NCBI RefSeq assembly: GCF_002868735.1
Contig: NZ_CP025613.1
Coordinates: forward strand, 744,001 to 808,000
Source of the DNA: Niveispirillum cyanobacteriorum
Lineage (GTDB): Bacteria > Pseudomonadota > Alphaproteobacteria > Azospirillales > Azospirillaceae
DNA length: 64,000 bases
Direction: 5' to 3'
Part shown: positions 10,974 through 28,480 of the stretch, piece after piece
Layout: the number at the start of each line of letters is the position of its first letter
Position numbering within the stretch: the first letter of the stretch is position 1
The notes under the pieces: generated by a model
Database searches by the model: none
What the model was told of the DNA's origin: nothing
Seen by the model: the letters and a program-made list of their open reading frames with translations, nothing else
Position numbers and translations under genes: made by a program

Positions 10974-10981
10974 AGGGTGGC

Positions 10982-12418: not shown

Positions 12419-15400
12419 TCAGGCCACCTCCATCGACAACAGGGCATCACCCGCCGTCACGGACCGCCCAGCCCGGCAATGAACGGCCCCGACACGACCG
12501 GCGCATCGCGCCTGGATGGTGAACTCCATCTTCATGGCTTCCAGCACGACCAGGGTCTGGCCCGGCTCCACCTGCTGCCCCACCTCGACCAGCACCTTCC
12601 AGACATTGCCGGAAATATCGGCCTGGATGGCGTTCTCATCTGCCACGGCGGGGGCGGCATCGGCCTCCGCCGCTATGACAGCGTCATCGGTCTGCCAGCG
12701 TGCCACTTCCGCCGTGAAAGCCGCCTGCTGGCGGGCGCGGAATGCCGCGATGTCGTCGGCTTCTGCCGCCCAGGCCGCCTCATGTGCCTCCAGATCGAAG
12801 ACCGAGTCCTCCACGGCCACCTGCGCCCGGCCGGCACGGAAATCGGCCCGGAACCTGTCCAGTTCCGGCTCCGTCACCGGATAGAAGCGCACGCGGTCAA
12901 AGAAGCGCAGAAGCCAGGGTTCTGCTCCAAACTGCCGGTTGGCCAGGAACTTGTTCCAGATGGGCACGGTGCGCCCCACCAACTGGTATCCACCGGGGCT
13001 GTCCATGCCATAGATGCACATATAGACACCGCCGATCCCCACCGTGCCCTCCGCCGTATAGGTGCGGGCAGGGTTGTATTTGCTGGTGAGCAGGCGGTGG
13101 CGCGGGTCCAGCGGCACGGCACAGGGCGCCCCCAGATAGACGTCGCCCAGGCCCAGGACCATGTAGCTGGCATCAAAGATGGTGTCGTGCACCTGCTCCC
13201 GGCGTTCCAGGCCGTTGATCCGCTGAATGAAGTCGACATTATTGGGCAGCCACGGGGCGTCCGCCTTCACCGTTTCCTGATAGCGGGTGACGGCACCCAG
13301 TGTGGCGCTATCTTCAAACGCCATGGGCAGATGCACGATGCGGCTCGGCACCTTCAGCCCCGCCACCGCCCCCAACCCTTCTTCCAGCGTCAGCAGCGTG
13401 GCGACCAACGCATCCTGATGGATCACCCGGCTGTCATAATGGATTTGCACCGATCGCACGCCGGGCGACAGTTCGGCCACACCAGGCACCCTGGCCGCCG
13501 TCAGCGCCTCCATCAACAGATGGATGCGCAGCCGAAGCCGCAGGTCCAGCACATTCTCCCCATATTCCAGCAGGATATATTTATCGCCGGCCTGACGATA
13601 AGTGACCATGGGCCGGTCACCGCTGGCAGGCAGGCGGGTCAGGATGCAGCTGTCGGGCTCAATTACCGCCGGCACCGGCAGGCCCGTATCGTCCAGCCCG
13701 GCAATCGCCGCATCCTGTGCACGTTCCAGGGCCAGGGCGTCGGCAAAGCTGACGGGGCGGAAGCGGATTGTGTCGCCCGGTTTCACCTGCCCTACCTTCC
13801 ACAGGTCGGCCTTGATGATGGTGGCAGGGCAGACAAAGCCGCCCAGGCTAGGCCCGTCACAGGTCAGGATGACGGGCGTGTCGCCGGTGAAATTGATGCT
13901 GCCGATGGCATAGACGCAGTCATGGATGTTGGACGGGTGCAACCCCGCCTCCCCGCCATCGCTGCGCGTCCATTCCGGCTTTGGCCCCACCAGCCGCACG
14001 CCCAGCCGGTTGGAATTGTGATGCACGCGGTAATCGCTGCTGAAAAAGGCTTCCATGGCCGCGGACTTGAAAAAGTCGGGCGCGCCATGGGGACCATACA
14101 ACACCGCGATATCCCAATGCTTGCTATAGGCAGGGATAAGACTGGCCGGGGCTGGTGAAGGATCAAGGGTGGGAGCCGGTGTGGTGCAGGCGGGCGCCCC
14201 CGGACGGCTGACCGGCAGCACGTCGCCCACGCGCAGGGTGCGGCCCGCATGGCCGCCAAACTGGCCCAGGACGAAGGTGGATTTGCTGCCCAGATAGTCG
14301 GGCACATCCAACCCGTTGCGGATGGCGATGTAGGTGCGGCACCCGCTTTCCGCCCGGCCCAGCCGCAGCACCTGCCCCGCCTTGACACTGATCGGTGTCC
14401 AGAACGACAGCGCCTCACCACCATCCAGGCTGGCCGGCATCGCGCCGCCGGTCAGGGCGATGATGGCATCGCCATGGAACCGCAGGGTCGGCCCTTGCAG
14501 GGTGCATTCCAAACCAGCCGCCGCCGCGTCATTGCCGACAATGCGGTTTGCGAGGCGGAAGGCGTAATCATCCATCGGCCCGGAAGGCGGCACGCCGATG
14601 TCCCAATATCCGTGCCGGCCCGGATAATCCTGCACGGTGGTGTAGGTACCGGGTTCCAGCACCTCCACCACAGGCGAAACATGGTGGTAGCTGTCCAGGA
14701 AGCGGGTGGACATACGGGCGTTGATGAAGGTGTCGCCCGACAGGATGCCGCGCAGATAATCCAGATTGGTGGCAATGCCATGCAGACGCGTGGCGTCAAG
14801 GGCGGCCAGCATCTTCAACCGCGCCGCCTCCCGGTCCGGTCCATGCACGATCAGCTTGGCGATCATCGGGTCGTAATTGGCGGAAACCTCGGTCCCCGTG
14901 CGCACCCAACCATCGACGCGCACGCCCTCGGGGAAGAACACCTCCGTCAGGGTGCCGGGCGACGGCGCGAAATTGCGCACCGGGTTTTCAGCATAAAGCC
15001 GCACCTCAATAGAGGCCCCCTGCGGTTCGGGCAGATGACTGAAATCGGGCGGATCACCGGCGGCGATGCGGATCATCCATTCGACAAGGTCCAGGCCGGT
15101 CACCGCCTCCGTCACCGGATGTTCGACCTGAAGCCGCGTATTCACCTCCAGAAAGTAGAAGGCGTTACGGGCGCCGTCATAGATGAACTCAACCGTGCCG
15201 GCCGAGACATAACCCACCGCCTGCCCCAGACGCACGGCGGCGTCTAGAAGGCGGCGGCGGGTCTCAGGCGGCAATCCTGGGGCGGGCGTTTCCTCGATCA
15301 CTTTTTGATTGCGGCGCTGGACCGAACAGTCCCGTTCGCCCAGCGCCACCACATTGCCCCGGCCATCGCCGAAGATTTGAACCTCCACATGGCGGGCATC

Positions 15401-16009
15401 GGACACGAACCGTTCGATAAACACCCCGCCATCCTTGAAGAAGGATTGGCCCAGGCGTTTCACACTATCAAACGCCGCGACCAGTTCCCCCTCATCGGCA
15501 CAGCGCTGCAGGCCGATGCCGCCGCCGCCTGCCGTGCTTTTCAACATGACGGGATAGCCAATCTCCGCAGCAGCCGCCTTGGCCGCCGCCACATCCTTCA
15601 ACAGGTCGGTGCCGGGCGTCAGGGGCACGCCCGCTGCCTTGGCAATCTCGCGTGAGGTGTGTTTCAGGCCGAAGCGGCGGATCTGGTCCGGGGTGGGACC
15701 GACAAAAGCGATGCCAGCGGCGGCACATTGTTCAGCGAACTCGGTATTCTCCGACAGAAAGCCATAGCCGGGGATGATGGCCTCCGCCCCCGTCTCCCTG
15801 GCAATCTCAATGATCCGGTCGCCACGCAGATAGCTTTCCGCCGGCGTCTGCCCGCCCAGCGGGATGGCGATATCGGCCACAGCCACATGCAGACTGTCGG
15901 CATCGGCGTCGGAATAGATGGCGACGGAGCGGATGCCCATCCGCTTCAACGTGCGGGCAATACGAACGGCAATCTCACCACGATTGGCGATCAGAACAGT
16001 GCTGAACAT
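12419..16009 (-). CDS. uca: Urea carboxylase (biotin-dependent)
   Basis: 1196 residues. It carboxylates urea to allophanate with ATP, bicarbonate and biotin in the cytoplasm. Domain order is biotin carboxylase (~1-450: MFSTVLIANRGEIAVRI, ATP-grasp KSTAGGGGIG, EVNTRLQVEHPVTEAVTG), a KipA/AHS2-type carboxyltransferase (~470-760), a KipI/AHS1-type domain (~800-1010: GEN-LDLRLRLRIHLL, SVQIHYDSR) and a C-terminal biotinyl domain with EAMKMEF, biotin lysine K1160. This order separates it from acetyl-CoA and pyruvate carboxylases. It lies 19 bp downstream of the allophanate hydrolase gene on the same strand, so the two-step urea amidolyase route is encoded as two proteins rather than a fusion. Confidence 0.96.
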   Translation of the reverse strand: MFSTVLIANRGEIAVRIARTLKRMGIRSVAIYSDADADSLHVAVADIAIPLGGQTPAESYLRGDRIIEIARETGAEAIIPGYGFLSENTEFAEQCAAAGIAFVGPTPDQIRRFGLKHTSREIAKAAGVPLTPGTDLLKDVAAAKAAAAEIGYPVMLKSTAGGGGIGLQRCADEGELVAAFDSVKRLGQSFFKDGGVFIERFVSDARHVEVQIFGDGRGNVVALGERDCSVQRRNQKVIEETPAPGLPPETRRRLLDAAVRLGQAVGYVSAGTVEFIYDGARNAFYFLEVNTRLQVEHPVTEAVTGLDLVEWMIRIAAGDPPDFSHLPEPQGASIEVRLYAENPVRNFAPSPGTLTEVFFPEGVRVDGWVRTGTEVSANYDPMIAKLIVHGPDREAARLKMLAALDATRLHGIATNLDYLRGILSGDTFINARMSTRFLDSYHHVSPVVEVLEPGTYTTVQDYPGRHGYWDIGVPPSGPMDDYAFRLANRIVGNDAAAAGLECTLQGPTLRFHGDAIIALTGGAMPASLDGGEALSFWTPISVKAGQVLRLGRAESGCRTYIAIRNGLDVPDYLGSKSTFVLGQFGGHAGRTLRVGDVLPVSRPGAPACTTPAPTLDPSPAPASLIPAYSKHWDIAVLYGPHGAPDFFKSAAMEAFFSSDYRVHHNSNRLGVRLVGPKPEWTRSDGGEAGLHPSNIHDCVYAIGSINFTGDTPVILTCDGPSLGGFVCPATIIKADLWKVGQVKPGDTIRFRPVSFADALALERAQDAAIAGLDDTGLPVPAVIEPDSCILTRLPASGDRPMVTYRQAGDKYILLEYGENVLDLRLRLRIHLLMEALTAARVPGVAELSPGVRSVQIHYDSRVIHQDALVATLLTLEEGLGAVAGLKVPSRIVHLPMAFEDSATLGAVTRYQETVKADAPWLPNNVDFIQRINGLERREQVHDTIFDASYMVLGLGDVYLGAPCAVPLDPRHRLLTSKYNPARTYTAEGTVGIGGVYMCIYGMDSPGGYQLVGRTVPIWNKFLANRQFGAEPWLLRFFDRVRFYPVTEPELDRFRADFRAGRAQVAVEDSVFDLEAHEAAWAAEADDIAAFRARQQAAFTAEVARWQTDDAVIAAEADAAPAVADENAIQADISGNVWKVLVEVGQQVEPGQTLVVLEAMKMEFTIQARCAGRVGAVHCRAGRSVTAGDALLSMEVA

Positions 16010-16028: not shown

Positions 16029-17816
16029 TCAAGCAGCATTCTGCGCACGCAGGCGCATATAGGCGCGCCAGCCGCCAAGGCTGGTGATGTCGGCGGCGTC
16101 GTGGGTGGCCCAGGCCTCGCACAGGAAACCCTGCACATGTCGGCCATCGACCAGTTCCAGCGTACCGATGCCCAACGGCGGCGGAATCAGCGCCACGAAT
16201 GACCCGTAATGGGCCACCGGCATGTCCCACAGCTCCACCGCGATGGGCATCCCCTCACCCGTGCGCACCAGCCCCGGCTTGGGCGGGGTCGTGCCCGGCA
16301 GGGCGTAAAGGCGATAGGCGGCGGAAGTCAGCGTACTTTCCAGAAGCACGGCTCCGCGTTCCGTCAACTGCCCGTTCAGCGGCATGCCCGATAGATGCGC
16401 GCCGACGACTGCCAGCGTGATATGCCCATGCCGTCCTTCCACCATCTTTTCTGGCTGCGGCAGCGACAGGCTGCTGGCCCCGCGCTTCCACGGACTGGCC
16501 GCCTGCCACAATCGCCCGAACTCGATCAGCCGCGCCTCGTTCCAGGCAGGTGTAATCAGGGTGATGCCGGCGGGCAGGCCGTCGCTGCGCATGCCCCCCG
16601 GCAGGGCGATGGCCGACCAGTCCAGCAGATTGACGAAATTGGTGTAAAGCCCCATACGGCTGTTCACCCCTACCGGATCGGCCATCACCTCAGCAATGGT
16701 GGGCAGGGTCGGGGCCGTGGGCACCAGCAGCCCATCCAGGCCCGCCATCAAGCCCTCGACCCGGCGCGCCAGTTCCATGCGCCGATATTCGGCCTTGAAC
16801 CCGTCGGCGGCGGTGAAGTTGCGGGCCTTGTCGATGATGGAGCGGACGACGGGATGCACCGTGTCGGGCCGGTCGCGCATCACGCCTTCAATGGCGGCAT
16901 AGCGTTCGGCCACCCATGGCCCGTCATAGAGCAATGCGGCCACATCCCACAGCGGCTGAAAATCAATGGCGCGCAGTTCCACGCCCAAGGAGGTCAGGCG
17001 TGACAGCGACGCCTGATAGGCCGCCTCTGCCGCGCCATCCCCGAACCAGTTGGGTGCCTTGGGAATGCCCAGCACGGGCCGCGCCGGCCAGGCGGTGGGC
17101 GGTGCCCCGGCCTTGCGGGAGTAGGCATCGGCAGCATCATAGCCCTGCATCTGCTCCATCACACTGGCCGCATCATCGACCGACAGGGCCATGATGGTGA
17201 TGCAGTCCAGCGTGCGGCAGGCCGGCACCAGCCCGCGCGTGGAGACCAGCCCCCGCGTGGGCTTAAACCCCACAAGATTATTGTGCCCCGCCGGCACCCT
17301 GCCCGACCCCGCCGTATCGGTGCCCAGCGCAAACGGCACCAGACCGCGCGCCACCACCGATGCCGACCCGGAACTGGACCCGCCGGAAACATGATCCGGG
17401 CTGAAGGCATTGGGCACGGTGCCATAGGGGGATCGGGTGCCGACCAGCCCCGTGGCGAACTGATCCAGGTTGGTCTTGCCGATGACAATGGCCCCCGCCG
17501 CCTCCAGACGCGCCACGGCGGTGGCGCTGACATCCGGCTGATAGGCAAAATCCGGGCAGGCGCAGGTAGTGGGCAGGCCTGCGGCGTCGATATTGTCCTT
17601 CACAGCAAAGGGAATGCCATAAAGCGGGGCCGACGGGTCCAGGGCCGCGATCCGCGCCTGCAACGCATCCGTCCCGATCAGGCTGATCCAGGCGGGATCA
17701 TCGCCGGACAGCGCCTCCAGCAGCTTGGGCAGCAAATCCTGCGGGCGTTGCCCAGCCCGATAGGCCTTGGCCCAGTCCTGCACGGTCCAGAATTGGGTGA
17801 CAATCATCGCGCTCAT
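16029..17816 (-). CDS. atzF: Allophanate hydrolase (AtzF/DUR1 amidase type)
   Basis: 595 residues. It hydrolyses allophanate to two ammonia and two CO2, completing urease-free urea breakdown. The amidase-signature domain covers ~1-440: catalytic K73 in PFAVKDNIDAAG, the SGGSSSGSA loop (~144-152) and the nucleophile S171 in GTDTAGSGRVPAG. The C-terminal ~150 residues form the second allophanate-specific domain (LNGQLTERGAVLL, PAVELWDMP-like VELWDMPVAHYG, GWRAYMRL). It is first of the atzF-uca pair. The 96-bp gap upstream holds an 18-bp dyad also found in front of the porin-urt operon, so expression is probably set by the adjacent two-component system. Confidence 0.95.
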   Translation of the reverse strand: MSAMIVTQFWTVQDWAKAYRAGQRPQDLLPKLLEALSGDDPAWISLIGTDALQARIAALDPSAPLYGIPFAVKDNIDAAGLPTTCACPDFAYQPDVSATAVARLEAAGAIVIGKTNLDQFATGLVGTRSPYGTVPNAFSPDHVSGGSSSGSASVVARGLVPFALGTDTAGSGRVPAGHNNLVGFKPTRGLVSTRGLVPACRTLDCITIMALSVDDAASVMEQMQGYDAADAYSRKAGAPPTAWPARPVLGIPKAPNWFGDGAAEAAYQASLSRLTSLGVELRAIDFQPLWDVAALLYDGPWVAERYAAIEGVMRDRPDTVHPVVRSIIDKARNFTAADGFKAEYRRMELARRVEGLMAGLDGLLVPTAPTLPTIAEVMADPVGVNSRMGLYTNFVNLLDWSAIALPGGMRSDGLPAGITLITPAWNEARLIEFGRLWQAASPWKRGASSLSLPQPEKMVEGRHGHITLAVVGAHLSGMPLNGQLTERGAVLLESTLTSAAYRLYALPGTTPPKPGLVRTGEGMPIAVELWDMPVAHYGSFVALIPPPLGIGTLELVDGRHVQGFLCEAWATHDAADITSLGGWRAYMRLRAQNAA

Positions 17817-17884
17817 GGTCCGATCTGGTTCCTGTACCGATTACCCCGGCCAGACCAGTATGCGGATCCATGCTGCACCGCCAT

Positions 17885-17902
17885 ATACGCAGGATGACGT
17901 AT
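17885..17902. promoter_or_regulatory. Shared urea-regulon operator, copy B (upstream of atzF)
   Basis: The 18-mer ATACGCAGGATGACGTAT lies 69 bp upstream of the atzF start and 11 bp past the response-regulator stop. It matches copy A at 22265-22282 at 14 of 18 positions, with both ends (ATACG and GACGTAT) conserved. The only other gene on this side is the LuxR-type response regulator, so this protein is the natural candidate binder. Confidence 0.6.
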
Positions 17903-17912
17903 TGGTGGGACG

Positions 17913-18824
17913 CTACCCCTTGCCCGCCATGATCCGCATGGCCAGTGAGGTTGCCGACGCGCGGTTTTCCACGCCCATCTTGGCGAAGATGCGCTCAAGG
18001 TGTTTGTTCACGGTGCGCGGGCTGATGCCCAGGATTTCGCTGATTTCCCGATTGGTTTTGCCATGTATCAGCCAGCGCAGAACTTCGACCTCACGCAGGG
18101 TCAGGTCGATCTGCGCCCGCAATATATCCTCGCCCGACGGGCCGGCGGCCGTCAGTTGGAACAGATATTCACCCGGCCCAGTGGGCAACAGGTAACGCGC
18201 CGGCCCCACCCCGGCGGCGGGTGCCAGGGGTTCTGCCGTCTCCGTGTCCGACCCACCGGCCACGGCACGTTGCAGCAGGGCCTGCACCGGTTCCGGCGGC
18301 ACGGCCCCCTCGCCAAATGCCGCCGACAGAAGACTGGCCGCCTGCGGTGTTGACCACAGAATATGCCCCTGCGGATTGACAGCGAACAGGTGGCGGCCCG
18401 ATGCATCAAGCGCCAGCCGCGCCCCATGCGCCGCCCGCGCCGTGGCGATATGCACCCGGATGCGGGCCAGCAGTTCGACCAGATTGACGGGCTTGGTCAC
18501 ATAATCGGTGCCCCCCACCTCCAGCCCGCGCAGCACATGGGCGGTTTCGGTCAGGCCGGTCATGAAGATGACGGGCAAATGCGCCGTGCGTGCGTCCCGC
18601 TTGATCTGCTGGCATGTGGTGAAACCGTCCATGCCCGGCATAACGGCATCCATCACCACCAGCGACGGCATCACGCGTTCCAGCAGGGTCAAGGCCGCCT
18701 CCCCCCGCGTGGCGGCCAGGGCCGTGAACCCGCCGCGTTCCAACGCGTCGACCAGCATGTTCAACTCGTCTCGATTATCATCGACGACCAGGACCATATC
18801 GCTGGCGGTTGCCCCGTCACGCAT
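17913..18824 (-). CDS. Two-component response regulator, REC - PAS-like - LuxR HTH
   Basis: 303 residues. The receiver (residues ~9-125) has the full phosphorylation set: VVDDN, phospho-acceptor D59 in LVVMDAVMPGMDG, the Thr in IFMTGLTE and K in YVTKPVN. The C-terminal LuxR/NarL helix-turn-helix (~238-300) reads LTLREVEVLRWLIHGKTNRE then ISEILGISPRTVNKHLERIF. Between them (~130-230) is a stretch, HLFAVNPQGHILWSTPQAAS, resembling a PAS sensor fold, unusual in such regulators. It overlaps the transporter-kinase gene by 8 bp (18817-18824) and precedes atzF-uca. I infer it drives both urea operons through the shared dyads. Confidence 0.88.
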   Translation of the reverse strand: MRDGATASDMVLVVDDNRDELNMLVDALERGGFTALAATRGEAALTLLERVMPSLVVMDAVMPGMDGFTTCQQIKRDARTAHLPVIFMTGLTETAHVLRGLEVGGTDYVTKPVNLVELLARIRVHIATARAAHGARLALDASGRHLFAVNPQGHILWSTPQAASLLSAAFGEGAVPPEPVQALLQRAVAGGSDTETAEPLAPAAGVGPARYLLPTGPGEYLFQLTAAGPSGEDILRAQIDLTLREVEVLRWLIHGKTNREISEILGISPRTVNKHLERIFAKMGVENRASATSLAMRIMAGKG

Positions 18825-21800
18825 GTTCCGTCCCCATCATCCCGGCGGTGCCCAGCACCTCTGCCAGCCGTTCATACTCAAACCCCTGGGCCAGCAGCGA
18901 CAGCCGGTCGAACCAGCCCTCATGCCCCGGATGGGTGGCGCGCAGCTCCCGCAGCAGCAGCTCGATCCCCCGCGCATGACCGATCTTGGCCAGGTTCAGC
19001 AGGCCCGCGATTTCCGCCGCCGTCAGGGCGGGGGCCACGGGAACGCCTTCGGCCATCGGTTCCTCCCGTTGCCATTCCAGGTCCAGCAGCACCTCCAGCC
19101 GCTCCAGAAGCTGGGCGATATCCACTGGCTTCACCAGGAAATCATCATGCGGCTGATCGGTCCCCCGCCCGCGTTCTGCCAGATCATGCGCCTCCGCCGA
19201 CAGAAGCAGGATCAGCAGATCCGCCATCCCGCCATCGCGTAACGCCTGCGCCACCTGCCAGCCATTGAGGCCGGGCATGGAGATATCCAGGATCAGCAGG
19301 TCCGGATTATGCCGGGGGGCGAGGTCCAGGCATTCCACGCCATTGCTGGCAAAGATCAGGTCAAACCCAAGCGGTTCCAGCAATTGCCGCATCATGGACA
19401 GGTGCTGCGCATCATCATCGCACAGCAGGATGGTGCGCCGGTCACCATGATAGCCCAGAACCCGGTGGCTGGGCCGCGCCTGCACCGGCGCCCGCACTTC
19501 TGACAGCAGCATATGCACCTTGAAACTGCTGCCCTTTCCCGGCTGGCTGTCCATGGTCAGTTCGCCCCCCAGCACATGGGTCAAAAGCCGCGTGATGGTC
19601 AGGCCCAGGCCCGTGCCGGGGATGGCGTCCATCCGGCTGGGCAGATTGCCCCGGTCGAACGGCAGGAAGATGCGCTCCCGGTCCTCCGGCGCCACGCCAA
19701 TGCCGGTGTCTGCCACCTCGAATTCCGCGGTTTCCCCACGCCGGCGCACGCTGAACCGTACCTGCCCGCGCTCCGTGTATTTCACGGCATTGGACAGAAG
19801 GTTCATCAATATCTGGCCCAGCCGCTTCTCGTCCGTCAGGACAAAACGCGGCAGGGTCGGGTCGGGTCGGTACTCAAACGCCACATCCTTGGCCGCTGCC
19901 TGTGGCCCGAACATGTCGGCCAGTTGCGCCAGGAAGGCCGGCAGGTCCACGACATCGCGGCTGATCTGTACCGTGCCGGTCTCGATCTTCGAAATATCCA
20001 TCAACCCATCAACCAGGCGGGTAATGTGCTCCGCACTACGCCGGATCACCCGCACCGCATCTTCGGGCTGTCGCAAGCCGCCACGTTCCAGCAGTTGCGC
20101 ATAGCCATTGATGGAATTTAGCGGCGTGCGCACCTCGTGGGACAGGCCGGCGATGAAGCGGGTCTTGGCGATGTTGGCGGACTCCGCCGCCTCCTTGGCC
20201 TTTTGCAGGGCGGCGTCGGTCTGTTCATGCGCCTCGATCTCGTCCAGCAGCAACGTCATCCGTCGCTCGCTCTCTTCCTCCGCCAAGCGCCGGCTTTCAT
20301 GGGCCAGAACGATGGCCCAGGCCGCCAGCCCCATAATGATCAGGGCCGACGCAAAGACGATCTGCAGGGTGGTCCGCACCGTTTCCTTCGGTACGCCCGG
20401 TATCGCCCCGTACTGCGTACCGATCAGGGCCAGCAGCATGGCCATGCCCGCCGTCAGCAGCGCCATAACGGCCGCGAACCGCCCGATACGGCTGCCCAGC
20501 CAGCGGCGCAGTGCCACCGGAAGATGGTTGCCCACCAGATCGGACAATTGCTCCCCCAGCGTCGCCCGCACCTTGCACCGGTCATGGCAGCGCGTTTCCA
20601 GCGAACAGCAGAGCGAGCAGATAGGAGCGCCATAGGCCGGGCAGTAGGACATGTCCGGCGGCTCGAACATATTCTCGCATACCGAACAGCGAATCAGGCC
20701 GCCCTCCGTCGCCATCACGTCTGGCTGCCGCGCAATGTAATAGCGCCCCTTGGTAGCCCAGGCGATGATGGGGGCCGAGACAAAGGCCGACACCAGCCCC
20801 AATAACGGCGCAAAGGCCCGCGCTAACTCCCCCAGCAGCCCGAAAAAGGCCGACAGCGACAGCAGCAGCGATATGCCCATGGCACCAACACCGACGGGGT
20901 TGATGTCGTACAGGTGCGCGCGGCGGAATTCGATGCTGGGCGGGCTCCAGCCCATGCGCTTATTGACCAGAAGGTCAGCGGTCAGTGCACCCACCCACGC
21001 GACGGCCAGATTGGCATAGATGCCCAGGATGCTCTCGATCACCCCGAAAATCCCCATCTCCATCAACATCAGCGCCAGCATGACGTTGAAGACCAGCCAG
21101 ACGACGCGACCCGGATGGGAATGGGTCAGGCGGGAAAAGAAGTTGGACCAGGCAATGGAGCCGGCATAGGCATTGGTGACATTGATCTTGGCCTGACAGA
21201 CCACGATGAAAATCACCGTCAGGGCTAGGGCGAGGCCCGGCGACGACACGATCCGTTCAAAGACCATGCGGTACATGGATGTCGGTGTTGCAGCCTCCAG
21301 CGCACTCATGCCCGCCTGAATGGCCGCATAGCCCAGCAGCGATCCGGCCACCAGCTTGGCCCCGCCGATAAAGATCCAGCCCGGCCCCGCAATCAGCATG
21401 GCGCTCCACCAACCAACCTTACCCGCCCGTTTGCGGTCCGGCAGGAAGCGCAGATAATCCACCTGCTCCCCGATTTGCGGCAGCAGCGACAGCAGTACAG
21501 ACGTGGCGAGGCCAAAGGCCAGCAGCGAAAACCCGCCCTCCGGCGCGTGCAGCCCCGCCAGACGGGTCCAGCCCGACAATTCCCCCGGTGCTGCCAGCAT
21601 GACAAAGGCCAGGGGGGAAAGCTGCAGCACCAGCCAGACCGGTTGCGTCCAGACCTGCATCCAACTGATCTTGCGGATGCCATGGATGGCGATGGGCAGC
21701 ACGATCAGGGCGCTGACCATGTGTGATAGCCAGAGCGGGATGCCCAGGCAGAGGGTTAGCGCCTCCGACATGATGGCCGCTTCCAGGGCCAGCAGGATGA

Positions 21801-22224
21801 AGGTGAAACCGGCATAGATCAGAGAGGTGAAGGTGGAACCGATATAGCCGAACCCGCCACCGCGGGTCAGCAAATCCATATCCACGCCGAACTTCGCCGC
21901 GTAATAGGCGATAGGCAGGCCGGTCGCCAGCACCAGCATGGAGACCAGTACGATGGCCGCCATGGCATTGGTGAATCCATAGGCCAGCGTGATCGACGCC
22001 CCGATCGCTTCGCACGCCAGGAAGGAGATGGCGCCCATGGCCGTATTGCCCACCCGGAACGGCGACCAACGCCGCGCGCGGTCAGCCGTGAACCGCAGGG
22101 CATAATCCTCCACCGTTTGGTCGGAGACCCAGCGGTTATACTGTCGCCGCACACGCACGATGGGCAGCGATTTCAGCATGCGCAGATGTCCATCAAAGCC
22201 CCCGCCCCCCAGAACCTGTTCCAC
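18817..22224 (-). CDS. Transporter-fused hybrid histidine kinase (NCS1-like permease + Cys cluster + HisKA-HATPase + REC)
   Basis: 1135 residues. Residues ~35-500 form a polytopic domain of about 12 membrane segments, resembling NCS1 nucleobase/allantoin permeases (SDQTVEDYALRFT, GVDMDLLTRGGGFG). Then comes an eight-cysteine cluster (C513, C516, C528, C536, C539, C540, C546, C550; spacing CxxC-x11-C-x7-CxxCC-x5-C-x3-C) likely to bind Zn or Fe-S. Two more membrane helices (~585-605, 620-640), a short coiled coil, HisKA with H696 (GLSHEVRTPLNS), HATPase (NLLSNAVKYTE, ADTGIGVAPED, GTGLGLTI) and a C-terminal receiver with D980 follow. An Hpt-like tail is possible. The layout parallels CbrA, which uses an SLC5 domain. 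Context makes urea or a related nitrogen compound the likely signal; whether it transports is unknown. Start could also be Met16. Confidence 0.9.
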   Translation of the reverse strand: MEQVLGGGGFDGHLRMLKSLPIVRVRRQYNRWVSDQTVEDYALRFTADRARRWSPFRVGNTAMGAISFLACEAIGASITLAYGFTNAMAAIVLVSMLVLATGLPIAYYAAKFGVDMDLLTRGGGFGYIGSTFTSLIYAGFTFILLALEAAIMSEALTLCLGIPLWLSHMVSALIVLPIAIHGIRKISWMQVWTQPVWLVLQLSPLAFVMLAAPGELSGWTRLAGLHAPEGGFSLLAFGLATSVLLSLLPQIGEQVDYLRFLPDRKRAGKVGWWSAMLIAGPGWIFIGGAKLVAGSLLGYAAIQAGMSALEAATPTSMYRMVFERIVSSPGLALALTVIFIVVCQAKINVTNAYAGSIAWSNFFSRLTHSHPGRVVWLVFNVMLALMLMEMGIFGVIESILGIYANLAVAWVGALTADLLVNKRMGWSPPSIEFRRAHLYDINPVGVGAMGISLLLSLSAFFGLLGELARAFAPLLGLVSAFVSAPIIAWATKGRYYIARQPDVMATEGGLIRCSVCENMFEPPDMSYCPAYGAPICSLCCSLETRCHDRCKVRATLGEQLSDLVGNHLPVALRRWLGSRIGRFAAVMALLTAGMAMLLALIGTQYGAIPGVPKETVRTTLQIVFASALIIMGLAAWAIVLAHESRRLAEEESERRMTLLLDEIEAHEQTDAALQKAKEAAESANIAKTRFIAGLSHEVRTPLNSINGYAQLLERGGLRQPEDAVRVIRRSAEHITRLVDGLMDISKIETGTVQISRDVVDLPAFLAQLADMFGPQAAAKDVAFEYRPDPTLPRFVLTDEKRLGQILMNLLSNAVKYTERGQVRFSVRRRGETAEFEVADTGIGVAPEDRERIFLPFDRGNLPSRMDAIPGTGLGLTITRLLTHVLGGELTMDSQPGKGSSFKVHMLLSEVRAPVQARPSHRVLGYHGDRRTILLCDDDAQHLSMMRQLLEPLGFDLIFASNGVECLDLAPRHNPDLLILDISMPGLNGWQVAQALRDGGMADLLILLLSAEAHDLAERGRGTDQPHDDFLVKPVDIAQLLERLEVLLDLEWQREEPMAEGVPVAPALTAAEIAGLLNLAKIGHARGIELLLRELRATHPGHEGWFDRLSLLAQGFEYERLAEVLGTAGMMGTEHA

Positions 22225-22264
22225 CCCATGCTCAGGACCCTAAACCGGTCCAGCATGCGCAGAC

Positions 22265-22282
22265 ATACGTCGTCTGACGTAT
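22265..22282. promoter_or_regulatory. Shared urea-regulon operator, copy A (kinase/porin divergent promoter)
   Basis: ATACGTC-GTCT-GACGTAT is a perfect 7-bp dyad with a 4-bp spacer. It lies 41 bp upstream of the kinase start and 101 bp upstream of the porin start, in the only shared control region for the divergent genes. The related copy B precedes atzF. Symmetry and size fit a dimeric LuxR-type response regulator. Confidence 0.65.
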
Positions 22283-22382: not shown

Positions 22383-23552
22383 ATGATGGGACGCAAGTTT
22401 GCGTCGCGGCCGGCGGCTGCGCGCATGGCGGTATCGGCCTTGGCGCTTGTGCTGGCCGGCCTGTCCGCTTCCCCGGCTTCGGCCGGTTTCACGCAGACAT
22501 TCGGGGATGGCAAATCGCTGTCCATCGGCCTGGGCATGCGCGGTTCTTATACCAGCGCCGAAGATGGCGCGCCCAGCGGCAGCGACCGGTCGAACGAGTT
22601 CAATCTGGACAGCGTGCGCGTCTTCGTCTCCGGCTCCCTGTCGGACACGATCAAGGCGACCTTCAACACCGAACGCGATGGCGACGGGAACCTGAAACTG
22701 CTGGACGGTTACGCCCGCTTTGAATTCTCCGATGAATTCAACATCTGGGTCGGCCGCATGCTGCCACCCAGCGACCGCGCCAACCTGGATGGCCCTTACT
22801 ACATCAACGCCTGGTCCTACCCTGGTGTCGTCTCGCAGTACCCGGCCAAATTCGCAGGCCGCGATGATGGCGCCACCGTCTGGGGCAAGCTGCTGGACAA
22901 GCGCCTGACCTATGCCGCCGGCGCCTTCAAGGGCCATAACCGCATCCGGGGCGCCAGCAACCAGGGCGACAATATGCTGTTCACGGGGCGACTGGCCTAC
23001 AACTTCCTCGACGTGGAGGATAACCCCGCCTATTACACCAGCAGCACATATTATGGTTCCGCCGACGTGCTGACGCTGGCCATTGCCGGTGCGTATCAGG
23101 AGGATGGCGTGGGCACCGCCGCCCGGCCCGGCGATTACGGCGCCGTCAGCATCGATGCGCTGTTTGAGAAGAAGCTGGGCGATGCCGGGGCCGTCACCCT
23201 GGAAGGTGCCTGGTATTCCTATGACACGGACGGCGTAGCCGACGTGGCACCCGGTTTCGGCGGCGCGTCGGGCACCGCCAATGTCGGCGGCGTCGTGGCG
23301 GGTGAGGCCTGGCTGATCGGCGGCGCCTATTTGCTGCCGGCAAAGGTTGGTATCGGCCAGTTCCAACCCTTTGTCCGGTATCAGACCTTTGACCCAGACG
23401 CCTCTCGGTTTGACACCAAGCAATATGATTTCGGCGTCAACTATGTGATCAGCGGTCATTCCGCCCGCATCAGCGCCGAATATTCCACGGTTGATACCGG
23501 CCCGGGTGCTGACAGCGACCGGTTCACACTGGGACTGCAATTGCAGTTCTGA
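22383..23552 (+). CDS. Outer-membrane porin of the urea operon
   Basis: 389 residues with a signal peptide (cleavage near SPASAGF). The mature part is beta-rich with alternating polar/hydrophobic strands, short turns and a C-terminal aromatic residue (LGLQLQF), as in barrel porins; the strand pattern (NEFNLDSVRVFVSGSLSDTI, ARFEFSDEFNIWVGRMLPP) resembles phosphate-selective/OprP-type porins. It is the first gene before urtABCDE, 59 bp from urtA, and divergent from the transporter-kinase. It probably lets urea or short amides through the outer membrane. Substrate selectivity cannot be read from the sequence. An adjacent in-frame ATG at 22386 is an equally good start. Confidence 0.75.
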   Translation: MMGRKFASRPAAARMAVSALALVLAGLSASPASAGFTQTFGDGKSLSIGLGMRGSYTSAEDGAPSGSDRSNEFNLDSVRVFVSGSLSDTIKATFNTERDGDGNLKLLDGYARFEFSDEFNIWVGRMLPPSDRANLDGPYYINAWSYPGVVSQYPAKFAGRDDGATVWGKLLDKRLTYAAGAFKGHNRIRGASNQGDNMLFTGRLAYNFLDVEDNPAYYTSSTYYGSADVLTLAIAGAYQEDGVGTAARPGDYGAVSIDALFEKKLGDAGAVTLEGAWYSYDTDGVADVAPGFGGASGTANVGGVVAGEAWLIGGAYLLPAKVGIGQFQPFVRYQTFDPDASRFDTKQYDFGVNYVISGHSARISAEYSTVDTGPGADSDRFTLGLQLQF

Positions 23553-23611
23553 CGGTGGCGGCCGCGCACGCCCTTTCCCCAAAACCATTTCTGCTGACGG
23601 GAGATAACCCC

Positions 23612-24910
23612 ATGTCGCGTCGTCAATTCCTGCGTTCCGCCGTCCTGTCCATCACCGGTGCTGCCCTGATGCTGGGCACGGCCGGGGTGGCGCTGGCCGC
23701 TGACAAGCCGCCGATCAAGGTCGGCATCCTGCATTCGCTGTCGGGCACCATGGCCATCAGCGAGACGACCTTGAAGGACGTCATGCTGATGCTGATCGAG
23801 GAGCAAAACAAGAAGGGCGGCGTGTTGGGCCGCAAGCTGGAGCCCGTGGTGGTAGACCCCGCCAGTAACTGGCCGCTGTTCGCTGAAAAGGCACGGGAAC
23901 TGCTGGCGGTGCAGAAGGTGTCGGCCACGTTCGGCTGCTGGACCTCGGTGTCGCGCAAATCGGTTCTGCCGGTGTTTGAGGAACTGAACGGCATCCTGTT
24001 CTACCCCGTGCAATATGAGGGGGAGGAAAGCAGCCGTAATGTCTTTTACACCGGTGCCGCCCCCAACCAGCAGGCGGTGCCGGCGGTGGATTATCTGATC
24101 GGCGAAGGGGTGCAGCGCTGGGTCCTGGCCGGCACCGACTATGTCTATCCGCGCACGACCAACAAGATCCTGGAAGCCTATCTGAAGGCCAAGGGCGTGA
24201 AGGCCGAAGATATCATGATCAATTATACGCCGTTCGGCCATGCCGACTGGCAGTCGATTGTGAAGGATATCAAGACCTTCGGCGGTGCGGGCAAGAAGAC
24301 GGCCGTCGTGTCCACGATCAATGGCGATGCCAATGTGCCCTTCTATAAGGAACTGGCCAACCAGGGCATCAAGGCAACCGACATCCCCGTCATCGCCTTT
24401 TCGGTGGGTGAGGAGGAACTGGCCGGCATCGACACCAAGCCGTTGCAGGGTCATCTGGCCGCCTGGAACTATTTCCAGAGCGTGAAGACCCCGATCAATG
24501 CTGAATTCATCAAGAAGTGGCAGACCTTCACCAAAAACCCCAAGCGCGTCACTAACGACCCGATGGAAGCGCATTTCATCGGCTTCAACATGTGGGTGCA
24601 GGCGGTGGAAAAGGCCGGCACCACCGATCCCGATAAGGTGATCGACGCCATGGTCGGCGTGGCCGTGCCCAACCTGTCGGGCGGCTATTCCGCCATGCTG
24701 CCCAACCATCACATCACCAAGCCCGTCCTGATCGGCGAGGTGCAGGCCGATGGGCAGTTTGAAACCGTTTGGAAGACGCCGGGCCTGGTCGCCGGTGACG
24801 AATGGTCCGACTACCTTCCCGACAGCAAGGACCTGATCGCCGATTGGCGCAAGCCGCTGTCCTGCGGCAACTTCAACACCGCCACGGGCAAGTGCGGCGG
24901 CGCGAAGTAA
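23612..24910 (+). CDS. urtA: Urea ABC transporter, substrate-binding protein
   Basis: 432 residues. Periplasmic binding protein of the branched-chain-amino-acid class, urea subgroup. The start at 23612 gives MSRRQFLRSAV, a twin-arginine-type signal, and is preceded by GGGAGATAA. Mature hallmarks are IKVGILHSLSGTMAISE, EKARELLAVQKVSATFGCWT, FYPVQYEGEESSRNVFYTGA and ANVPFYKELANQG, typical of UrtA rather than LivK. It is followed by a stable stem-loop and then urtB, a usual way to give the binding protein excess over the permease. Confidence 0.96.
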   Translation: MSRRQFLRSAVLSITGAALMLGTAGVALAADKPPIKVGILHSLSGTMAISETTLKDVMLMLIEEQNKKGGVLGRKLEPVVVDPASNWPLFAEKARELLAVQKVSATFGCWTSVSRKSVLPVFEELNGILFYPVQYEGEESSRNVFYTGAAPNQQAVPAVDYLIGEGVQRWVLAGTDYVYPRTTNKILEAYLKAKGVKAEDIMINYTPFGHADWQSIVKDIKTFGGAGKKTAVVSTINGDANVPFYKELANQGIKATDIPVIAFSVGEEELAGIDTKPLQGHLAAWNYFQSVKTPINAEFIKKWQTFTKNPKRVTNDPMEAHFIGFNMWVQAVEKAGTTDPDKVIDAMVGVAVPNLSGGYSAMLPNHHITKPVLIGEVQADGQFETVWKTPGLVAGDEWSDYLPDSKDLIADWRKPLSCGNFNTATGKCGGAK

Positions 24911-24923
24911 GACGGTAATGACG

Positions 24924-24953
24924 CCCCCTCTCCCACCTGGGTGAGAGAGGGGG
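24924..24953 (+). repeat. Stem-loop between urtA and urtB
   Basis: CCCCCTCTC (24924-24932) pairs with GAGAGGGGG (24945-24953), and inside it CACC (24934-24937) pairs with GGTG (24940-24943). It lies 13 bp after the urtA stop and has no T-tail, so it probably acts as a 3' stabiliser or partial terminator that lowers urtBCDE relative to urtA. Confidence 0.6.
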
Positions 24954-24979
24954 TTCGCTGCTTCCCGAAAGGCCACCCC

Positions 24980-26575
24980 ATGCGAATGCTGCTTCTGCTG
25001 CTGTCCCTGCTGGTCACGCCGCCGGTGTTGGCACAGGCGACGGGTCCCCTGATCGATGCGCTGGCCACCGATGATTACGCCGCCAAGGAACAGGCGCTGA
25101 CGGCCCTGACGGAAACGGGTGATCCCGCGATCGTCCCGGCCCTGAAGGCACTGGAAAGCGGTCAGCTTTACCGAAGGCTGGCCGATGACAAGGTGCTGAT
25201 CGGGCAGGAGCAGGAGGAAAGCATCAGCCTGACCGACCCACTGACGGGGGCAGCCGTGGGAACGGAGCCGGCGGGCAATGTAGAGCTGATCCGCGTCAAT
25301 AACCGCCTGCGCCGGGCCATTGGTGCCTCGCTGGGTGCTCTGACATTGCGCAGCCCCGATGCCGCCGTCCGCCGCACCGCGGCTGAAGCCGTTTTTGTCA
25401 GCCGGGACGCCGCAGCGTTGCCGTTGGTGGAGGCGGCACTGGCTGCGGAGCAGGACATAAAGGTCAAGCGCAGCCTGGAACAGGCCCGCGCCGCCATCCT
25501 GCTGGCCGATGACACTCTTGGCACTGATGACAAGCTGTCTGCCATCGCCACCATCGCCGACAAGGGCGGACAGGCGGTGCTGGCCCTGCTGAACCCGTTG
25601 TTGGGCAGCGAGGATGCCGCGGTGGCCAAGGCCGCAACAGAGGCGGTGCGCCTTATTGAGAACAAGCTGGCCTGGGCGGCGGCGGCACAGAACATCATCT
25701 ATGGCCTGTCGTTGGGCTCCGTCCTGCTGCTGGCCGCCATTGGTCTCGCCGTCACCTTCGGTGTGATGGGCGTGATCAACATGGCACATGGGGAAATGGT
25801 GATGCTGGGTGCCTACACGACCTATGTCGTGCAGGATGTGATCCGTACCCATGTGCCCGGCCTGTTCGACTGGTCCTTGCTGATCGCTCTGCCCCTGGCC
25901 TTTGTCGTGGCAGGCGGGGTTGGCATCCTGATTGAGCGCGGCATCATCCGCTTCCTCTATGGCCGCCCGCTGGAAACGCTGCTCGCCACTTGGGGCCTGT
26001 CGCTGGTGTTGCAGCAGGCGGTGCGCTCGATTTTCGGCCCCACCAATATGGAGGTGGGAAATCCAGACTGGATGGCTGGCGCATTTCAGCTGGGGGATAT
26101 CACCATCACCTTTGGCCGCATGTGGATTTTCCTGTTCGGCCTGATGGTCTTCGCGGCCCTGATGCTGCTGTTGCGCCGCACGCCGTTGGGATTGCAGATG
26201 CGCGCCGTGACCCAGAACCGGGCGATGGCGCGGGCCATGGGCATCCGTACCGCGCGCGTCGATGCGCTTACCTTCGGCTTAGGCTCGGGCATCGCCGGGT
26301 TGGCGGGCGTGGCACTGTCACAGATCGACAATGTCAGCCCCAATCTGGGCCAGGGATACATCATCGACAGTTTCATGATCGTGATCTTTGGCGGCGTCGG
26401 CAACCTGTGGGGCACGCTGGTCGGCGCCCTATCGCTGGGCGTTGTCAACAAGCTTTTGGAACCGCTGGCAGGCGCGGTGCTGGGCAAGATCCTGGTGCTG
26501 GTCGGCATCATCCTGTTCATCCAGGCGCGTCCGCGGGGCCTTTTCGCCCTGAAGGGCCGCGCCATCGAACATTGA
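24980..26575 (+). CDS. urtB: Urea ABC transporter, permease UrtB
   Basis: 531 residues, start at 24980 (MRMLLLLLSLLVTPP). As in other UrtB proteins, a signal sequence and a ~220-residue periplasmic extension with HEAT-like helical repeats (DYAAKEQALTALTETGDPA, residues ~25-220) precede the LivH-like permease domain. The permease part starts near NIIYGLSLGSVLLLAAIGLA and includes GVINMAHGEMVMLGAYTTY and the EAA-like loop region RTARVDALTFGLGSGIAGLA. It forms the inner-membrane channel with UrtC. It is 69 bp after urtA and 10 bp before urtC. Confidence 0.95.
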   Translation: MRMLLLLLSLLVTPPVLAQATGPLIDALATDDYAAKEQALTALTETGDPAIVPALKALESGQLYRRLADDKVLIGQEQEESISLTDPLTGAAVGTEPAGNVELIRVNNRLRRAIGASLGALTLRSPDAAVRRTAAEAVFVSRDAAALPLVEAALAAEQDIKVKRSLEQARAAILLADDTLGTDDKLSAIATIADKGGQAVLALLNPLLGSEDAAVAKAATEAVRLIENKLAWAAAAQNIIYGLSLGSVLLLAAIGLAVTFGVMGVINMAHGEMVMLGAYTTYVVQDVIRTHVPGLFDWSLLIALPLAFVVAGGVGILIERGIIRFLYGRPLETLLATWGLSLVLQQAVRSIFGPTNMEVGNPDWMAGAFQLGDITITFGRMWIFLFGLMVFAALMLLLRRTPLGLQMRAVTQNRAMARAMGIRTARVDALTFGLGSGIAGLAGVALSQIDNVSPNLGQGYIIDSFMIVIFGGVGNLWGTLVGALSLGVVNKLLEPLAGAVLGKILVLVGIILFIQARPRGLFALKGRAIEH

Positions 26576-27728: not shown

Positions 27729-28480
27729 TGTCAAAACCCGATCCGCAGCACACCCAGCTCTACCTTGATGGCGTCTCTGTCAGCTTTGACGGGTTCCGGG
27801 CGCTGAATAACCTGTCACTGATCATCATGCCGGGTGAAATGCGCGCCATCATCGGCCCCAACGGGGCGGGCAAGACCACGATGATGGATGTGATCACCGG
27901 CAAGACCCGGCCCGACAAGGGCACCATCCTGTTCGATGGCGACACCGACCTGACGGAAATGGACGAGGCCGATATCGCCACGCTGGGCATTGGCCGCAAA
28001 TTCCAGAAGCCGACCGTGTTTGAAAGCCATACGGTCTGGGACAATCTCGACCTGGCCCTGGCCGGAAAGCGCGGACCGTTCGCCAGCCTGTTCCACCGCG
28101 AAGGGGCGAATGATGACCGGATCCTTTCCATCCTGGATACGATCCGCCTGCCCGCCCGCCGCCATGTCCTGGCCGGATCGCTGAGCCATGGTCAGAAGCA
28201 ATGGCTGGAAATCGGCATGCTGTTGGCCCAAGAACCGAAATTGCTGCTGGTCGATGAACCGGTGGCCGGCATGACCGATGCGGAGACGGCGGAGACGGCG
28301 CGCCTGCTGCGGGAGATTGCGCAGACGCGGTCGGTTGTCGTCGTCGAACATGACATGACGTTCGTGCGCGATCTGGATGTGAAGGTGACGGTCCTGCATG
28401 AAGGCTCCGTCCTGTCCGACGGCTCGTTGGACCATGTCAGCGCCGATCCGCGCGTGATCGAAGTCTATCTGGGGCGGTGA
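27728..28480 (+). CDS. urtD: Urea ABC transporter, ATP-binding protein UrtD
   Basis: 250 residues, start at 27728 overlapping the urtC stop. LivG-like ATPase: Walker A GPNGAGKTTMMDVI (~46-59), Q-loop and IGRKFQKPTVFESHTVWDN, signature region GSLSHGQKQWLEIG (~153-166), Walker B LLLVDEPVAGM (~176-186) and the switch His in VVVEHDMTFV. The LSHGQKQW variant of the ABC signature is usual for UrtD. It powers urea uptake together with UrtE, whose start lies 3 bp after this stop. Confidence 0.95.
   Translation: MSKPDPQHTQLYLDGVSVSFDGFRALNNLSLIIMPGEMRAIIGPNGAGKTTMMDVITGKTRPDKGTILFDGDTDLTEMDEADIATLGIGRKFQKPTVFESHTVWDNLDLALAGKRGPFASLFHREGANDDRILSILDTIRLPARRHVLAGSLSHGQKQWLEIGMLLAQEPKLLLVDEPVAGMTDAETAETARLLREIAQTRSVVVVEHDMTFVRDLDVKVTVLHEGSVLSDGSLDHVSADPRVIEVYLGR

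Follow-up and report, generated by a model that had tools for sequence, protein, structure and literature searches.

A hybrid sensor kinase with an NCS1-like permease domain and an eight-cysteine module, a probable urea sensor in Niveispirillum cyanobacteriorum

Transporter-fused sensor kinases and the Niveispirillum protein

Sensor kinases fused to a transporter domain are already known. The CrbS/CrbR and RpuS/RpuR systems, which serve acetate and pyruvate, combine an SLC5 fold and a STAC linker with a hybrid kinase and a LuxR-type regulator (accessible part of PMC9100948), and systems of this type activate uptake and use genes for the same substrate through a repeat in the promoter (accessible parts of PMC9100948 and PMC5715377). 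In CbrA, STAC lies packed beneath the transporter, whose motions it is proposed to transmit (PMC13022988, accessible part). SLC5 with STAC is the only combination among the transporter-fused kinases of the literature surveyed, as far as the accessible portions of those papers go. Here we describe, in a stretch of 64,000 nucleotides from Niveispirillum cyanobacteriorum (contig NZ_CP025613.1, positions 744,001 to 808,000; hereafter the window), a hybrid sensor histidine kinase in which an NCS1-like permease domain, a module of eight cysteines and two further transmembrane helices (TM13 and TM14) precede the kinase core, and which lies among genes for urea uptake and breakdown. Its predicted NCS1-type fold and its cysteine linker differ from those of the SLC5/STAC kinases; no NCS1-kinase fusion and no urea or amide kinase of such layout was found among the titles and abstract openings of the open-access literature, and a description elsewhere is possible. 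We assign a probability of about 0.68 to the reading that it is a transceptor-type urea sensor kinase, inducing urea uptake, urea breakdown and itself through a LuxR-type regulator and a palindromic DNA site. Its probable role is to signal to the cell that urea or similar small amides are present, switching on the genes for their uptake and breakdown. A second transporter fold with a different linker would show that nutrient transporters became kinase sensors more than once, and an NCS1 kinase is a natural comparison for how the conformational cycle of a transporter drives a kinase.

The protein resembles CrbS and RpuS in carrying a transporter-fold domain on a hybrid kinase with a C-terminal receiver and in its LuxR-type regulator; unlike them, it has a predicted NCS1-type fold, an eight-cysteine module and two extra transmembrane helices instead of an SLC5 domain of 13 transmembrane helices, a STAC four-helix bundle and a PAS domain. 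Pfam gave no SLC5 (SSF) match and no PAS match in the kinase. Where STAC would sit, the predicted models show a cysteine module of hairpin and short helix followed by a transmembrane hairpin, and no STAC, a judgement made from the models with no direct STAC profile run; in these models the cysteine module takes the place of STAC. A preliminary description of the window had named CbrA as the precedent: it is indeed a transporter-kinase fusion with an SLC5 domain, but not the sole precedent, and CrbS and RpuS are closer in layout. CbrB, the regulator of CbrA, is not known to be of the LuxR type. Like the present protein, CbrA of Pseudomonas joins transporter and kinase in one chain and is tied to nitrogen and carbon compounds (PMC13022988, accessible part); unlike it, CbrA has the order SLC5-STAC-PAS, is linked to histidine and, as the accessible part of PMC7918813 describes it, is without a receiver.

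The kinase gene, whose coordinates had been given correctly but without a strand, lies on the minus strand and encodes 1135 amino acids counted from a GTG start (Table 1). Because the codon of Met16 (22177-22179) aligns with the Met of 'GMSARQR..' in several relatives, the true start appears likelier to be 22179 than the GTG. Pfam recognises HATPase_c, Response_reg and HisKA, together with a sub-cut-off HATPase_c_2 match, and finds no Hpt domain. In an alignment of 22 members, H696 of the SHE box, N808/N812, D839/G841/G843, G870/G872/G874 and the receiver residues D936/D937/D980/K1032 are all invariant (22/22), so that the domains and catalytic residues of a hybrid sensor histidine kinase are present in full, as the earlier reading of intact catalytic boxes and a receiver had it. 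The two extra membrane helices of that reading are borne out by hydrophobic stretches at residues 579-608 and 615-645, which are also helices in the AlphaFold2 model. The gene of the partner regulator overlaps the kinase gene by 8 bases on the same strand.

The permease domain is too divergent for profile assignment. Residues 1-660 have no Pfam match at E<=0.01, and the permease stretch of the window protein none even at E<=10; for 17 relatives the same stretch gave just weak Pfam matches to other families, none of them NCS1, and the N-terminal domain alone had no NCS1 match in Pfam, NCBIfam or PDB sequence searches. Because neither PF02133 nor TIGR00800 matches, we term the domain NCS1-like and do not file it as an NCS1 member. 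The AlphaFold2 model of residues 21-655, built on a 17-sequence alignment, has a predicted local distance difference test score (pLDDT) of 79.6 and a predicted template modelling score (pTM) of 0.81. Its five best PDB matches in Foldseek are all CodB or Mhp1 (E 1.3e-9 to 6.5e-8; template modelling score by target 0.66-0.71), with SLC5 and other LeuT-fold structures ranking below, so that the predicted fold is LeuT-type and nearest Mhp1/CodB. An intermediate sequence was found in a search of 289 genomes: a stand-alone protein of another alphaproteobacterium (L031) is 22% identical over residues 31-498 (E 1.1e-7) and is itself a Pfam PF02133 match (E 2.8e-9). A profile built jointly from kinases, stand-alone permeases and distant NCS1 proteins aligns with CodB over its full length (E 1.3e-12); since it includes true NCS1 rows, it supports the alignment rather than membership. 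The model matches and the intermediate sequence underlie our prediction that residues ~35-500 fold like NCS1 transporters. The preliminary description had proposed such a permease over just these residues, to be checked by profile search and by comparison of a predicted structure with Mhp1 and CodB; the comparison put both proteins on top, and the profiles reached NCS1 by way of L031 and the joint alignment but not by a direct Pfam match. Unlike CodB and Mhp1, the domain is fused to a kinase and has no Pfam or NCBIfam NCS1 match, and residue L144 aligns with W108 of CodB. Residue 343 pairs with CodB N275 in a part of the alignment (TM8) where confidence is low; W108 and N275 we take to be cytosine contacts. 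Replacement of a sodium site by K346 was considered from the same alignment and is not claimed, alignment confidence there being low.

The cysteines follow the motif C-x2-C-x11-C-x7-C-x2-CC-x5-C-x3-C (C513, C516, C528, C536, C539, C540, C546 and C550), exactly the eight-cysteine cluster noted earlier, and all eight are invariant in the 22 aligned members. Among 170 family proteins (161 kinase fusions and 9 stand-alone permeases), the pattern with its fixed 38-residue span is found in 160 of the 161 fusions, a count that may include one gene twice where sequenced stretches overlap. The single fusion without it (L078) breaks frame ahead of the cluster. That kinase frame, from a Rhizobium metagenome-assembled genome, falls into two pieces (1603-5000 of L078), through a real break or an assembly error. 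The cluster is reduced or absent in 8 of the 9 stand-alone permeases, which have 0, 4 or 5 pattern cysteines, the ninth, from Methylovirgula, having all eight. Those of Acinetobacter, Klebsiella and Moraxella keep CxxC and CxxC with the rest gone, two of Streptomyces keep five pattern cysteines, and those of Arthrobacter U41 and Tsukamurella have no CxxC pairs; an assignment of the first three as lacking any cluster was rejected on their CxxC..CxxC C-termini. Because C528, C540, C546 and C550 are lost together while C513, C516, C536 and C539 are kept, the pattern points to two four-cysteine treble-clef sites, site 1 being 513, 516, 536 and 539 and site 2 being 528, 540, 546 and 550. The Streptomyces proteins, with C528 kept and the last three gone, fit this scheme only partly.

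A model of the isolated module (pLDDT 73.2, about 90 over residues 11-40; pTM 0.53) has predicted strands at 27-30 and 35-38, a helix at 39-43 and CxxC at 15-18 and 38-41, which is the treble-clef layout of a CxxC knuckle, a beta-hairpin and a CxxC where a helix begins. Among its best structural neighbours in Foldseek, many are RING, ADD, PHD, FYVE, LIM and C1 zinc domains. Weighing against a zinc domain, all Foldseek matches have E >=0.3 and the first is not such a domain; sequence matches to zinc-finger families are weak (RING, E 3.4; FYVE, E 0.85 in 1/17). With its invariant spacing, predicted hairpin and helix and zinc-domain neighbours, the cluster looks like a two-site treble-clef zinc module in the models, which agrees with the metal-type cluster suggested before. 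NCS1 transporters have 12 helices, and with that number ahead of it the module should be cytosolic and followed by TM13 and TM14.

It is improbable that the cluster is itself the main sensor, taking a redox, zinc or nickel input, with the permease as membrane anchor or second input. Such a role would suit the near-universal cluster in the fusions, including an alternative fusion (L165/L167), and its reduction or absence in eight stand-alones, and urease requires nickel; yet the urea carboxylase route and the formamidase contexts are independent of urease nickel, the permease, too, has many invariant residues, and some of its positions vary with the hydrolase context, the Methylovirgula stand-alone also has all eight cysteines, and CxxC pairs kept invariant on a treble clef commonly hold structural zinc.

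Gene company, subclades and stand-alone relatives

The kinase family is widespread in proteobacteria and old. Copies matching over nearly the full length occur in 16 of 59 genomes, the window's own included (18 copies), and the N-terminal part alone matches 21 of 289 genomes of the class, 20 of them in frames of >=1130 amino acids. With a stand-alone relative as query, 60 of 398 genomes of the phylum match; strong matches fall at 57 places in 52 genomes, all in frames of >=894 amino acids and therefore too long for stand-alone permeases, and the other 8 genomes have weak matches alone. A scan of genome contigs gave at least 588 relatives, of which the 80 top-scoring loci, from alpha-, beta- and gammaproteobacteria and rich in Bradyrhizobium, were used. 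In a plasmid collection 342 Klebsiella records match the N-terminal domain, and the stand-alone query finds a stand-alone permease in at least two Klebsiella records. In the records consulted, the family's proteins bear no more than generic names ('hybrid sensor histidine kinase/response regulator', 'ATP-binding protein', 'ArcB', 'response regulator'), and with a family so common a result in one strain would annotate many loci. In a tree rooted on eight stand-alone permeases, and built without distant NCS1 outgroups, with which a quick tree showed long branches meeting, all kinase-fused rows form one clade (77 rows, support 100/99), and the hybrid kinases form a clade inside it (75 rows, 99/98). 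The same permease, eight cysteines and hydrophobic helices are found on a different, receiver-free kinase in L165 and L167; in these as in L190 and L191, which carry the same module, a formamidase and a response regulator lie in the same stretch. The regulator in L190 is OmpR-type by Pfam.

In the window, the neighbours had been described as urea-handling, and allophanate hydrolase, urea carboxylase and UrtA-E do all exceed their NCBIfam cut-offs, the first two constituting a urea amidolyase pathway. Gene company was then compared over a class sample of 19 loci, 14 relative loci and the best-scoring 80 genome-contig loci; neighbours were named by phmmer scores with our own thresholds, and as the loci differ in length the counts are lower bounds. 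A LuxR-type regulator lies on the kinase strand in 19/19, 14/14 and 78/80 loci, respectively. Urt-type genes are near the kinase in 15/19, 12/14 and 72/80, with UrtA on the opposite strand in 13, 12 and 70. Formamidase is in view in 10/19, 4/14 and 52/80, and the urease alpha subunit in 1/19, 0/14 and 9/80. A kinase locus with urtABCDE is present on pSymB of S. meliloti; on pOB3b1 of Methylosinus urtABCDE and urease lie opposite the kinase-regulator pair, with a hypothetical gene in the porin's place; and an IncFIB plasmid of Klebsiella, like Paraburkholderia, has urtABCDE and formamidase. On plasmid pKPN3-307_typeB of Klebsiella pneumoniae (L115, 5885-16237) the fused kinase, regulator frame, urtABCDE-type genes and formamidase stand together, flanked on either side by insertion sequence (IS) elements; in its record the kinase bears the name 'ATP-binding protein', and some other records have 'ArcB'.

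Because formamidase occurs in so many family loci, the family-wide ligand class is inferred to be urea and short-chain amides, broader than urea and not ureides. The earlier idea of a urea or ureide ligand is supported in so far as urea belongs to this class, but it was too narrow, and no neighbour supports ureides. An exclusive urea function for the whole family is rejected by the formamidase loci, and a ureide (allantoin) ligand was likewise rejected, no such neighbour being seen; 'allantoin permease' on stand-alone relatives is a record name, several such genes lying in urease, formamidase or amidase surroundings. The proposed survey of co-occurrence upheld the link to urt-type genes but not that to urea carboxylase, which was seen in the window's genus alone and whose family-wide link is rejected. 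The Methylophilus fmdCDEF amide/urea system comprises a porin, a Urt-like ATP-binding cassette (ABC) transporter and formamidase, as several relatives here do; we know of no NCS1 kinase from work on it. In P. veronii, urt genes lie beside formamidase and the transporter was inferred to be able to take up formamide (PMC13209695, accessible part).

Hydrolase context also follows the phylogeny. The window protein belongs to a 20-row subclade (support 98/91) in which no row has FmdA in view; of the 10 rows that show urease, urea carboxylase or allophanate hydrolase, 9 fall within it. With 38 of 86 tree rows labelled urea (10) or amide (28), the labels need 2 changes on the tree, compared with a mean of 9.0 and a minimum of 4 for permuted labels (0/2000 shuffles as low as 2). 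Labels of L115, L123 and L125 (amide) and L113 (urea) were set by hand from annotated records. L016, L022 and L029 stayed unlabelled; longer stretches of the same genes (L129, L135, L142) show formamidase, and they fall outside the urea subclade. Positions 71, 144, 245, 249 and 343 are among the 25 that best tell the 20 subclade rows from the 55 rows of the other hybrid kinases: subclade versus rest, 249 is P versus mostly A, 71 C versus L, 144 L versus F (F in 52 of the 55), 245 L versus mostly F, and 343 C versus mostly S. Other separating positions, such as 168, 324, 205 and 453, have no comparable structural reading.

Several observations run counter to a dedicated urea sensor. No urea or amide gene is in the stretch at 4/19, 2/14 and 7/80 loci, and none is annotated within 12 kb either side of the Azospirillum lipoferum 4B copy. 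Urea carboxylase was seen in one genus alone, as noted, and the allophanate hydrolase of L126 lies 0.7 kb from a contig end. The urease-linked tenth row (L143) is not part of the urea subclade. Within that subclade, neither a hydrolase nor a urt gene is in view for 5 of the 20 rows, of which three are on stretches <14 kb; L089 is counted as having urt genes by virtue of UrtD and UrtE, which the UrtA/UrtB label missed. Nothing indicative is annotated next to two stand-alones, those of Arthrobacter NicSoilB11 and Streptomyces angustmyceticus, and the S. chartreusis one lies in a stretch without annotation. Gene neighbourhood separates neither urea from other amides nor direct sensing from an indirect (nitrogen, ammonium) signal. 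As a separate observation, the Azospirillum copies L112 and L032-L035 show kinase and regulator paired with no urea or amide genes in view; they may act in trans.

The stand-alone 'allantoin/cytosine permease' genes belong to the same family by sequence; they differ in having no kinase, fewer cysteines (except in Methylovirgula) and D71 with F/Q72. Three of them are 40, 43 and 49% identical to the kinase permease domain, and others are 61-76% identical to the Arthrobacter one. Their surroundings are telling: the permease precedes ureE..C on an Acinetobacter plasmid, follows ureEFG in Klebsiella, stands beside fmdA in Moraxella, within 1 kb of fmdA in Tsukamurella and beside an aliphatic amidase in Arthrobacter U41, and in Methylovirgula it lies between regulator and amidase in a formamidase-kinase-regulator-permease-amidase cluster. 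Family genes named 'allantoin or cytosine permease' that sit with urease genes (L118, 4980-6587; L119, 4971-6578) are likely to encode urea (amide) permeases. Because several stand-alones sit with hydrolases and no annotated urt genes nearby, the permease fold appears to have its own tie to urea or amide substrates. This bears on an alternative that we consider decidedly unlikely, in which the NCS1 domain binds no substrate and is a docking or conformational partner following the flux or state of UrtABCDE or another membrane protein. The strong linkage of sensor and ABC transporter genes (72/80 loci) is what it would predict, and the SLC5 or SLC5-STAC parts of P. putida CbrA alone fail to restore growth on histidine (PMC13022988, accessible part); against it, the Acinetobacter, Klebsiella, Moraxella and Tsukamurella stand-alones have urease, formamidase or amidase with no urt gene annotated within 5 kb, some subclade-specific residues align with the CodB substrate site, and some kinase loci are without nearby urt genes.

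At positions 71 and 72 all 9 stand-alones have D and F/Q, whereas at 71 the 77 kinase-fused rows divide into 53 L, 22 C, 1 M and 1 gap, and at 72 into 76 E and 1 gap; at 68, 71, 72, 135, 291, 354 and 392 no residue is common to the two sets. The difference may mark transporter versus receptor, a hint only, given the small stand-alone set, and because of it the kinase-fused domain may have lost net transport. Taken further, the kinase would be a receptor derived from an NCS1 urea/amide permease, its pocket retained but re-tuned between urea and amides, its transport lost in a D71-to-E72 switch, and site 2 (C528, C540, C546, C550) coupling it to the kinase, possibly as a zinc, nickel or thiol-redox gate. 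We hold this elaboration tentatively and consider it rather unlikely as a whole; if true, a cell would invest in urea or amide breakdown only when both the substrate and the metal or redox state allow.

A candidate operator and the proposed signal path

The transceptor reading gains a possible output from a palindrome. ATACG-N8-CGTAT emerged from a dyad search in 16 of 49 non-redundant upstream regions, compared with at most 2 for any dyad in one shuffled set. Of 110 upstream regions, 28 match a fuller consensus, ATACGTCA-N2-TGACGTAT, with <=3 mismatches and a further 44 match it with 4; these regions are partly non-independent, since Bradyrhizobium makes up most of the 44 and the 28 include five same-genus ones. 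By comparison, 1100 shuffled regions gave none at 3 mismatches and 6 at 4. The window holds two exact ATACG-N8-CGTAT sites (Table 1), which are the only two in the whole 6.05-Mb genome, both at the kinase locus; the reversed control has none. By chance alone, the window would be expected to hold 0.07 matches to the fuller pattern at 3 mismatches and 0.58 to the short pattern at one. The palindrome differs from the published ACTU sequences of CrbS/RpuS-type promoters, as given in the accessible text. A sigma-70 promoter scan of 17700-22450 found none.

Both sites recur in the five same-genus genomes with the kinase, the second lying on another contig in G003 and G006. Overall, an exact site is at the locus in 26 of 32 kinase-bearing genomes; when checked on 33 loci, 25 have it. 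In five loci (L126, L150, L151, L153, L154) the site lies at the start of a nearby porin frame and not directly before the kinase. A second site at the start of an aliphatic amidase frame (L156, 1946; L157, 15578; L158, 1924) in the related genomes G027, G030 and G034 looks as if the amidase belonged to the same regulon. The palindrome nevertheless has a background to be set against it. With one mismatch allowed in the short pattern, 12 of 100 window shuffles gave >=2 matches, and about one exact site per genome is background in genomes of this bacterial family: 19 genus or family genomes without the kinase have 21 scattered sites versus 11 for the reversed control. We therefore put weight on the positions of the palindromes, not on their number. 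Six of the 32 kinase-bearing genomes (G021, G115, G181, G221, G308, G314) have no exact palindrome at the locus, and of eight further loci seven are without it, the exception being Methylosinus, where a site lies between the kinase and the gene that occupies the porin position. Azospirillum L032-L034 show no good palindrome. A perfect ATACGTCATTTGACGTAT palindrome away from the kinase locus (G028:C2:298925-298942) marks a possible extra regulon member.

Ordinary nitrogen-status sensing, in which the kinase would answer general nitrogen limitation and the urea or amide genes would be just some of its targets, is the least probable alternative and in our view very unlikely; kinase-regulator pairs without urea or amide neighbours are what it would lead one to expect, but the confinement of the exact palindrome to the kinase locus (both genome sites) suggests a regulon that is small and dedicated, provided that the regulator binds this palindrome.

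From the domain order, the predicted NCS1-type fold, the gene partnership, the conservation of cysteines and context and the locus-restricted palindrome, we infer ligand, signal direction, metal binding, phosphotransfer route and regulator binding for the urea sensor as follows. The NCS1-like domain would bind urea, which in the window's subclade would be the relevant one of the short-chain amides, and the domain's ligand-dependent movement would pass through the cysteine module, probably with zinc, and the TM13-TM14 hairpin to the HisKA/HATPase core. Phosphate would then reach the adjoining LuxR-type regulator, with the fused receiver as a relay or brake. Both ATACG-N8-CGTAT sites would be bound by the regulator, one in the region where the promoters of kinase-regulator and porin-urtABCDE diverge and the other in the promoter region of allophanate hydrolase and urea carboxylase, so that urea would induce its own uptake, its own breakdown and its sensor. 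Ligand, coupling and regulon can all be tested directly, thanks to the urea and amide subclades, the palindromes and the permeases that occur without a kinase.

The surrounding locus

The features of the locus are collected in Table 1.

Table 1. Features of the kinase locus, in window coordinates
Feature	Position	Strand	Basis or remark
Hybrid sensor kinase (NCS1-permease / 8-Cys / 2TM / HisKA-HATPase / receiver), 1135 aa	18817..22224	-	Probable start 22179
NCS1-like permease domain, residues 35-500	20725..22122	-	AlphaFold2 and Foldseek (CodB, Mhp1 best); stand-alone relatives
8-Cys cluster, residues 513-550, predicted treble-clef-like two-site metal module	20575..20688	-	22/22 invariant; cluster model
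TM13-TM14 hairpin into kinase, residues 579-645	20290..20490	-	Hydropathy; AlphaFold2 helices
HisKA, residues 686-750, phospho-acceptor H696 in SHE	19975..20169	-	Pfam E 1.3e-17; invariant
HATPase_c, residues 797-906	19507..19836	-	Pfam E 1.5e-25
Kinase receiver domain with D980, residues 932-1043	19096..19431	-	Pfam E 9.4e-19
Partner response regulator, receiver and LuxR-type helix-turn-helix	17913..18824	-	Pfam Response_reg and GerE
Candidate operator ATACGTCGTCTGACGTAT, kinase/porin divergent promoter region	22265..22282		Dyad and genome searches
Candidate operator ATACGCAGGATGACGTAT, between regulator and allophanate hydrolase	17885..17902		Dyad and genome searches
Allophanate hydrolase	16029..17816	-	TIGR02713, 816.9 bits (cut-off 511)
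Urea carboxylase	12419..16009	-	TIGR02712, 1944 bits (cut-off 1304)
Porin, Porin_O_P family	22383..23552	+	Pfam E 1.6e-7; NCBIfam ExtI below cut-off
UrtA, urea-type ABC binding protein	23555..24910	+	TIGR03407, 561 bits (cut-off 493)
UrtB permease subunit, long N-terminal extension	24941..26575	+	TIGR03409 matches residues 250-540
UrtC permease subunit	26586..27728	+	TIGR03408
UrtD ATPase, open reading frame as listed	27650..28480	+	TIGR03411 matches from residue 36; real start probably near 27725
UrtE ATPase	28484..29179	+	TIGR03410

In UrtB about 250 residues precede the part matching the family model. ExtI, which the porin matches below the NCBIfam cut-off, is a porin of a selenite/tellurite operon; a porin frame adjoins urtA in several relatives too, and fmdC is a porin in a similar position. 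Convergent with urtE, at 29205-30824, lies a gene for a serine hydrolase-like protein of PF00144 (beta-lactamase family), with no link to the urea genes seen. On the other side, positions 7516-12241 hold genes for a major facilitator superfamily transporter, a glycoside hydrolase of family 88, a KduI-like protein and mannonate dehydratase (UxuA), a locus for pectin or uronate use that adjoins the urea locus.

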